Assembly: GCF_000746025.2 (NCBI RefSeq)
Contig: NZ_CP045798.1
Location: 2,959,501-3,023,500, forward strand
DNA: 64,000 nucleotides
Source: Thermanaerosceptrum fracticalcis
GTDB taxonomy: Bacteria; Bacillota; Peptococcia; DRI-13
Direction: 5' to 3'
Shown one piece after another: positions 23,138 to 28,008 of this stretch. A program made the position numbers and the translations under genes. Numbering within the stretch: position 1 is the stretch's first letter; every line of letters starts with the position of its first letter. A model generated the notes under the pieces. The model made no database searches and was not told where the DNA came from. It was given only the letters and a program-made list of their open reading frames with translations.

Positions 23138-23875
23138 TCAGTGGTGTACTAAGCCAAGAGCCAAGATGAGCAAAATGCCTAGAGCAAAACCCAGCCGGGC
23201 ATAGTTGGGATGGCGTCGGTAGGACTCGGGAATAAGTTCATTCTTAATGATGAAAGCCATAGCACCTCCTGCCAAGGCCAGAAGCAGACAGATGAAGTGT
23301 TTGGAAATGGAAACCAGTAGCAAACCCAGGCAGGCCCCCAGAGGGGTAAAAATACTTACCAGTAGACAGGTGCCAATGATACCTTTCCGGGACATACCAC
23401 CCATAGTTAAGGGCGCTGCTGTAGCCATTCCCTCCGGTATGTTATGCAGCCCAATAGAGAGGGCGATGAGAAATCCCAGGCTTTCCTTGGCCGTATAGCC
23501 AACGGCTATAGCGATCCCTTCAGGTAAATCGTGGAGAGCGATACCGGCGGCAATCAGGTATCCCATTTTTAGCAGGTAACCCTGTCGACCCGCCTTTTGT
23601 TCCTTAATACCAGGTAAAAAGGAAATGATAATGTCTAAGAGCAGCATAAAGAGCAAGCCCAACAAAAAACCCAGTGAAGTTACAAAAACATTGCCATAAT
23701 CAAGGGCTGAGGGAATTAGATCAAAAATAACCACAGCAGCCATGATGCCACCGGCAAATCCCAGAAAACCGGCCAGGATCCGTTCTCCCGGCCGGCCAAA
23801 GGCCAAAACAAATAAAGCACCAAACACCGTAGCCAGTCCGGCTACTGTACTTTGCCATATTACTTCATAAATCAT
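23138..23875 (-). CDS. ZIP-family divalent metal transporter
   Basis: 245-residue membrane protein with about eight hydrophobic helices. The ZIP metal-site helices are clear: HDLPEGIAIAVGYTAKESLG and GLHNIPEGMATAAPL, each with the H-x-x-P-E pattern. This places it with ZupT-type importers of zinc, iron or manganese. A short His-containing C-terminus (LGLVHH) follows. Start ATG at 23875 with a GTATCGATGATTT context; the ribosome site is AGAGGTTAG. It is transcribed away from the YaaH gene, and the TauE pair lies downstream in the same direction. Confidence 0.85.
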   Translation of the reverse strand: MIYEVIWQSTVAGLATVFGALFVLAFGRPGERILAGFLGFAGGIMAAVVIFDLIPSALDYGNVFVTSLGFLLGLLFMLLLDIIISFLPGIKEQKAGRQGYLLKMGYLIAAGIALHDLPEGIAIAVGYTAKESLGFLIALSIGLHNIPEGMATAAPLTMGGMSRKGIIGTCLLVSIFTPLGACLGLLLVSISKHFICLLLALAGGAMAFIIKNELIPESYRRHPNYARLGFALGILLILALGLVHH

Positions 23876-27325: not shown

Positions 27326-27350
27326 TTTACAGAGAGAAAGCAAAAACAAG

Positions 27351-27371
27351 AGGCCGGATATCCGGCCTTTG
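27351..27371 (+). terminator. Rho-independent terminator
   Basis: AGGCCGG / CCGGCCT stem around ATAT, followed by TTTGC; the T-tract is short. Confidence 0.65.
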
Positions 27372-27600
27372 CTATTTCAATATTTTATCCATGCTTTGTA
27401 CGTTTTCTCTTAGTTTATCAACATAACCTAACTGTGCATTAACCCACTGTTCCTCTCGTTCTGGCACTTTTCCCGGATATGGTGTGGTCACCTTCAGTCC
27501 TTAGGCAGGTAACTACCCCAGGAAAGACCTGTATATGTTCATGAACCGGGAGGGAGGGAGAACGTGTTCTTTCCAACGCATGAACCCAACCTCCAATATG
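27372..27600 (-). pseudogene. Decayed coding remnant with a frameshift
   Basis: On the minus strand, bases 27500 to 27372 read as a protein-like tail (LKVTTPYPGKVPEREEQW ... ENVQSMDKILK, stop). The 100 bases upstream read as protein in another frame (NHIGGWVHALERTRSPSLP ... HIQVFPGVVTCLRT). No start or ribosome site was found, and the two pieces meet near 27500 at a frame change. I do not recognise the family. It is likely the end of a lost gene. Confidence 0.35.
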
Positions 27601-27706
27601 GTTATAATTAAACAGCATTTTTAGCGTGTGTAATTTTTGTAGAAAAATACTTCCTATTGCTTAATATATGCGCATTAATGTATACAATATATTTTCCCCA
27701 ATCGCA

Positions 27707-27735
27707 TTGACCTTTTTACAAGAAGGAAATATAAT
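27707..27735 (+). promoter_or_regulatory. Strong sigma-A-like promoter for the 36-residue peptide gene
   Basis: TTGACC (27707-27712), 17-bp spacer, TATAAT (27730-27735). The expected transcript starts near 27742 and has an 80-base leader with a weak GTATTAT/ATAATAC hairpin. Confidence 0.7.
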
Positions 27736-27821
27736 AGTATTACAAAAAGTTATATAACACGACCTAAGTAAGTGATGTATTATATAATAATACTTCATAC
27801 AAAAGGAAGGGGGAGTAGAAA

Positions 27822-27932
27822 ATGAACGCACCTATCCTTGCTAATATTGAGGAAGCTTTAGAAAAATTGGCGGCTTTAGAAGAAAAACGTGAAGAACTAA
27901 AGAAGACACCTTGTAGTCCATGGGGTGAATAA
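27822..27932 (+). CDS. 36-residue peptide, unknown function
   Basis: Short ORF starting MNAPILANIEEALEKL and ending KKTPCSPWGE. The middle is a strongly charged amphipathic helix with heptad-like Leu/Ala spacing; the tail holds the only Cys, the only Trp and two Pro. It has every sign of expression: promoter TTGACC-17-TATAAT 80 bases upstream, ribosome site GGAAGGGGGAG, ATG, and a 16-bp-stem terminator starting four bases after the stop. No modification enzyme or exporter sits beside it; neighbours are a decayed gene and tRNA-Thr. It could be a signalling or modified-peptide precursor, a small regulator of a larger protein, or a spore-related small protein. None of these is proven. Confidence 0.6.
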   Translation: MNAPILANIEEALEKLAALEEKREELKKTPCSPWGE

Positions 27933-27934
27933 AT

Positions 27935-27972
27935 AAAAACGCTTTCAAGGTTTTCCTTGAAAGCGTTTTTAT
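27935..27972 (+). terminator. Very strong rho-independent terminator
   Basis: A 16-bp perfect stem, AAAAACGCTTTCAAGG / CCTTGAAAGCGTTTTT, with a TTTT loop. It works on either strand, also facing tRNA-Thr. Confidence 0.9.
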
Positions 27973-28008
27973 TTATTGATTTTTTTCTTTTGCGAAAATT
28001 AATATAAC

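Follow-up and report, generated by a model that had tools for sequence, protein, structure and literature searches.

A conserved 36-residue peptide of one bacterial order and an operator-like palindrome that putatively links it to nitrogen and glutamate metabolism

The window analysed here (the whole stretch of DNA, 64,000 nucleotides in length) contains a frame of 36 codons that is flanked by signals of its own. The questions raised by this locus are whether so short a frame is a gene, what controls it, and what its product might do.

The peptide gene and its transcription unit

On sequence grounds, the 36-residue open reading frame is a real gene; its translation is MNAPILANIEEALEKLAALEEKREELKKTPCSPWGE, and the features of the locus are collected in Table 1. 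A sequence-only reading of positions 27707-27972 had described a promoter TTGACC-17-TATAAT, an excellent ribosome site and a terminator with a 16-bp stem, together forming a complete and independent short transcription unit. The promoter was confirmed where that reading placed it and scored 11 out of 12 in a promoter scan, and the ribosome site proved to be the purine-rich AAGGAAGGGGGAG. A terminator is indeed present, although the stem had been estimated too low. The fold of the whole transcript in the window has a z score of -5.9. Elements TTGnnn-17-TATAAT are placed identically in the five peptide loci (the window and genomes G001, G002, G005 and G009), and a hairpin can be read directly 3' of the stop codon in all five, with differing sequences. 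An independent, conserved short transcription unit is supported.

Table 1. Features of the peptide locus and its surroundings, in window coordinates
Feature	Position	Strand	Basis and remarks
ZIP-family metal transporter gene	23138..23875	-	Neighbour in 5/5 loci
Operator-like palindrome GTATACAATATAT	27680..27692		Consensus GTATACWGTATAC, 2 mismatches; 14 bp upstream of -35
Sigma-A-type promoter TTGACC-17-TATAAT	27707..27735	+	Promoter scan; -35 TTGACC at 27707-27712, -10 TATAAT at 27730-27735, 17 bp apart; same spacing and place in 5/5 loci
Second, degenerate palindrome copy TAATACTTCATAC in leader	27788..27800		4 mismatches
Shine-Dalgarno-like AAGGAAGGGGGAG	27803..27815	+	Sequence; purine-rich site in 5/5 loci
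36-aa peptide gene, helix 3-28 (predicted) and tail PCSPWGE-COOH	27822..27932	+	ORF from ATG (27822) to TAA (27932), homologues, AlphaFold2
Intrinsic terminator, ~23-pair stem and T-run	27929..27985	+	Fold; overlaps stop codon

A terminator right after the stop codon and the one Trp codon of the frame could also belong to a leader peptide that acts as an attenuator for a downstream gene. The downstream neighbour, however, is not conserved across the five loci, being an antisense tRNA-Thr in the window and in G001, a tRNA-Pro in G002 and G009, and neither in G005, which has no such neighbour; this reading is unlikely to the point of being hardly credible. On the upstream side, a segment of about 270 bp between a copper-amine-oxidase-domain gene and the peptide promoter (window 27326-27598) is missing from the sister genome G001, by either insertion or deletion.

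Distribution, conservation and the C-terminal tail

The homologue search proposed by the sequence-only reading was positive: a family-profile search, run besides a single-sequence search, found the peptide in 5 of the 46 class genomes searched. They all belong to one order (5 of its 25 genomes) and to families f1, f2 and f5, and the profile recovers every one of them at E 5e-20 or better. The homologues are 36-37 residues long and 47-92% identical. Thirteen alignment columns are invariant, six of them inside the tail PCSxWGE, and this tail forms the exact end of the protein in all five, so the conservation of the tail, a check also proposed by that reading, is borne out. As a pattern, P-C-S-x-W-G-E-stop was matched in 6 of the 25 order genomes, against none for a reversed-pattern control; the sixth match (G011) is due to chance and sits inside an ABC-permease frame.

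The codons of the invariant tail residues (P, C, S, W, G and E) vary synonymously. Between G002 and G009, all three changes are synonymous (reached in 0.5% of simulations), and for the pair G000/G001 there are 3 nonsynonymous changes where 5.3 were expected (5.3% of simulations). The substitutions thus favour synonymous sites, which supports the view that the tail is under strong selection.

A search of 398 genomes across the phylum gave one new match at E<1e-4 (in G214), and this lies on the strand opposite to an amidophosphoribosyltransferase-like frame and is regarded as chance. Other matches in the phylum, of which L122, L124, L125 and L132 were inspected, fall either on part of the helix, within long frames, or on the tail, within frames that are unrelated. 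The two loci among the matches listed by a wider scan of contigs are those of G001 and G005. No family in Pfam scored above threshold (two scores below it were Osmo_CC at 0.07 and Tex_N at 0.098), NCBIfam gave no match at E<=10, PHROGs none at 0.1, and phage records none at E<=1. Scores against the PDB were at chance level, the best (E 0.71) being to a designed helical protein, and a literature search on the tail letters in a small-protein or C-terminal context found nothing.

AlphaFold2 predicts a helix at residues 3-28 and a tail of low confidence. The helix of the sequence-only reading is thereby retained, but its description as amphipathic is not, since shuffled sequences give hydrophobic moments just as large (14-75% of shuffles reach the observed value in the four sequences compared). 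The peptide is acidic, with a net charge of -3 to -5, and has no hydrophobic signal sequence. It is a narrowly distributed, conserved and probably cytoplasmic protein of one bacterial order. The single Cys described earlier is true of the window peptide, but the homologues of G002 and G009 read CSCW and so have two.

The unusual tail had led the earlier reading to suggest that it could be modified or recognised. Since the tail does not vary up to and including its C-terminal Glu, recognition is plausible. Modification would be expected if the peptide were the precursor of a RiPP or of a secreted signal peptide with the tail as the modified core, as a small frame with a Cys- and Trp-containing tail might suggest. 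The check for linked maturases that had been proposed came out negative, however: none of ten neighbouring proteins scanned with Pfam at three peptide loci belongs to a maturase family, and at four of the five loci the listed ORFs showed none by eye. RiPP cores usually vary, whereas this tail is invariant apart from one position, and the peptide does not have the signal sequence of a secreted product. We consider a precursor role highly unlikely.

An operator-like palindrome at peptide and nitrogen genes

A palindrome of the type GTATACWGTATAC is found 14 bp upstream of the -35 element in all five peptide promoters. It lies outside the segment covered by the sequence-only reading, in which neither the palindrome nor a regulon of nitrogen genes was mentioned. 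The geometry, site-14-TTGnnn-17-TATAAT, is conserved at the five loci, and from this order the centre of the site is placed at about -56 from the predicted transcription start. A further copy in the leader, just before the ribosome site, reads exactly ATACWGTATAC in the four loci outside the window, and it is doubled in G002 and G009.

Thirty sites outside the peptide loci served to build a position weight matrix (PWM). On its scale the top-scoring site at each peptide locus lies at 13.2-20.6, and random sequence reaches 13.0 about once per 100 kb. The site at the window peptide is the top match in the 64 kb, with a score of 13.2 that was equalled in 7 of 60 simulated windows. The case in the window's genome alone is therefore modest and rests on conservation; the degeneracy of the window's own two sites was counted against the regulon reading.

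The exact core ATACWGTATAC was searched in eight genomes, namely the window's genome and seven relatives, and was found at 39 loci: 4 peptide loci, 1 terminator and 34 others. The terminator copy (L034 1501-1513, in the window's genome) is an exact palindrome inside the hairpin, and hence not every exact match is an operator. Of the 34 others, 7 fall within ORFs of at least 100 aa and 25 lie ahead of a gene start; the remaining 2 are more than 400 bp from any gene start. The genes so preceded encode glutamate dehydrogenase (GDH, 7), glutamate synthase (6), the ammonium transporter Amt (2), class-II glutamine amidotransferase (2) and, once each, glutamine synthetase III (GSIII), GatB, a GltP-like glutamate/dicarboxylate symporter, DctP, a member of the F420-ligase family, a glutamate-cyclase-like protein, a class I/II aminotransferase and a TAXI-type binding protein whose gene is divergent from that of a class-III aminotransferase. 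Gene identities were assigned by HMM scans for 21 of the 25, and for L097, L098, L100 and L101 by first residues nearly identical to those of scanned orthologues. Core genes of ammonium and glutamate assimilation make up 16 of the 25, a described bias that has no matched control set of genes beside it.

The motif occurs 8 times in the window's genome, against 0 for a control pattern. Corresponding counts are 57 against 15 in families f1-f6, 15 against 20 in families f7-f8, where no peptide was found, and 78 against 25 in the other genomes of the class; there too, some sites are followed by GDH or by a symporter gene (22 loci looked at). ATACWGTATAC defines, across the class, a putative regulon for nitrogen and glutamate. 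Genomes that lack the peptide also have the motif before GDH and glutamate synthase genes, which would make the peptide an optional member of the regulon. NrpR (domain PF01995) is absent from all 25 genomes of the order. A literature search for the palindrome strings returned no paper that, judged by title, concerns nitrogen control, and the motif has apparently not been described before as a nitrogen operator.

Several sites depart from the exact core. The GSIII genes of G000, G001, G002, G009, G005 and G010 have degenerate sites in or near their promoters (PWM 9.7-14.3), and the one GSIII locus fetched from G004 has no site above PWM 7. At the GSIII promoter, G003 has an exact site, and the window's genus and G010 have the degenerate form AATATTGTATAC (L252 1456, L255 1390, L264 1368). 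Tandem copies of ATACWGTATAC, 20 bp apart, precede glutamate synthase in several genomes (L102 4158-4208; L104 5078; L074 2975; L080 3072). A result against the regulon reading is the GSI-PII-Amt cluster of G000, which has no strong site (best PWM 10.2). Such clusters (L251 7243-7827, L260 1882-2460, L262 1203-1775) have no strong palindrome, and beside them is encoded a small protein (about 190 aa) that is response-regulator-like and resembles an ANTAR-type regulator. In other enzyme promoters the predicted position of the site varies (-37, -14 and +8), and activation is therefore not established.

The same survey bears on whether the peptide handles metal together with the neighbouring ZIP transporter. 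The ZIP gene is near the peptide at all five loci, directly divergent from it in G002, G009 and G005, and the peptide has one conserved Cys. However, one Cys makes a poor metal site, and the window and G001 keep the palindromes with the peptide even though the ZIP gene is some 4 kb away. Moreover, none of 14 loci with a ZIP orthologue and no peptide has a site of two or fewer mismatches, or such a tail, within about 1.6 kb (some of these loci, from other genomes of the order, have sites with three mismatches); the palindromes therefore go with the peptide. The ZIP neighbourhood is probably synteny and not part of the peptide unit, and a metal-handling function is very improbable.

Nitrogen control of a transcript of 250 nt would also suit a small RNA, with the ORF secondary, whether the RNA were dual in function or purely regulatory. 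The predicted transcript is short and monocistronic with a strong terminator, and nitrogen-controlled small RNAs such as NsiR4 are described (PMC6316151). What is conserved, however, is the protein, its tail codons changing synonymously, and Rfam gave no match apart from the neighbouring tRNA. Leader folding varies across the five loci, from z -4.2 to +1.1. A conserved RNA element in the leader was rejected because the fold, strong in G002 and G009, is absent in G005. We consider an RNA regulator improbable.

A probable role in ammonium and glutamate handling

The peptide most likely belongs to the nitrogen/glutamate regulon under a putative regulator, since the palindrome core precedes 25 gene starts of which 16 are those of nitrogen-assimilation genes. 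Because its expression would seem to be switched by the cell's own control site for nitrogen metabolism, its role is probably that of a small helper, or a brake, in handling ammonium and glutamate. In the mechanism that we propose, a putative transcription factor would bind the GTATACWGTATAC copies in the leader and upstream, the latter centred at about -56 as befits an activator, and would thus couple peptide synthesis to nitrogen status. The helix would then dock on one of the regulon's own proteins, be it glutamate synthase, glutamate dehydrogenase, glutamine synthetase III or Amt, and the C-terminal PCSxWGE-COOH would occupy a pocket on this target and modulate its activity. Genes for glutamine synthetase (GS) and PII are present in genomes with and without the peptide, so co-occurrence singles out no target.

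A modulator of this kind is realistic because published small nitrogen proteins act on GS or Amt. IF7 and IF17 (gifA and gifB) are described as inactivating cyanobacterial glutamine synthetase under the control of NtcA, with two NtcA sites in the gifA promoter of Anabaena (PMC6316151). Our peptide resembles them as a small protein whose promoter appears to carry sites of nitrogen regulation, there those of a global regulator and here palindromes of nitrogen genes; the operator-like site is one that it has in common with the promoters of glutamate synthase, GDH, GSIII and Amt. Unlike the peptide, which is acidic, shorter and has a fixed C-terminal tail, IF7 and IF17 are larger and depend on conserved arginines. 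In a comparison limited to family profiles, neither Pfam nor NCBIfam links them to the peptide with a match that passes any cut-off. In Methanosarcina mazei, sP36 (61 aa) is described to act on the ammonium transporter AmtB1 (PMC10714827), and sP26 (23 aa) to interact with GlnA1 with small reported effects (PMC11957540). Those proteins are likewise tiny, linked to nitrogen, and bind GS or an ammonium transporter, but they are archaeal, and the likeness drawn here is one of description.

The invariant C-terminal Glu could instead be an attachment point, with a ligase joining an amino acid or a protein to its gamma-carboxyl. In the amino-group carrier LysW, the terminal Glu of EDWGE carries the substrate (PMC10433800), and Pup, which occurs in actinobacteria and a few others, is attached through the C-terminal Glu of GGE (PMC3511204). 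In favour, the peptide has the WGE-COOH of LysW on a tail that is unchanged right up to its end, the regulon is one of glutamate metabolism, and in the window, G001 and G002 there are nearby ORFs that look, by eye, like argF, argG and argH. Against this, a RimK-family ATP-grasp protein (PF08443, E<=1e-8) is present in 2 of 5 genomes with the peptide and in 3 of 20 without it, and the RimK-type protein of the window's genome (L171) has no GSWGR motif in its translation. With a RimK-type ligase in only two of the five peptide genomes, this is not a LysW system as known.

The LysW/ArgW carriers end in EDWGE, whereas all five peptides end in CSxWGE; the zinc-binding cysteines of LysW are absent from a peptide with one Cys (two in G002 and G009), and its dedicated ligases LysX and ArgX are absent or unmatched. 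Neither LysW nor Pup families matched the peptide at E<=10 (Pfam and NCBIfam for LysW and Pup together; Pfam for Pup itself). Pup and the peptide are both small proteins that end in Gly-Glu, GGE in the one and WGE in the other, and the end of Pup may also read GGQ. We regard the carrier reading as quite doubtful. In its novel form, which is improbable, a ligase not of the LysX type would join the invariant PCSxWGE-COOH of a nitrogen-regulated helical scaffold, through its terminal Glu (and perhaps its Cys), to a nitrogen enzyme or an amino acid.

What can be read from the genomes themselves is the gene and its conservation, together with the invariant tail and the common operator-like palindrome. 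The full reading, in which the peptide, as a member of the regulon, uses its fixed C-terminal tail to modulate a nitrogen enzyme or transporter, has in our judgement an even chance of being correct. Even so, comparative genomics alone has given a 36-residue orphan protein a regulatory home in nitrogen and glutamate metabolism, and has exposed an operator motif at the genes for glutamate synthase, GDH, GSIII and Amt in a bacterial class. The absolute conservation of the tail and an apparently undescribed nitrogen operator make clear experiments possible. Should modulation through the fixed C-terminus prove true, the IF7/IF17 and sP36 class would gain a counterpart from bacteria other than cyanobacteria, and a synthetic peptide would allow a direct test of the target.
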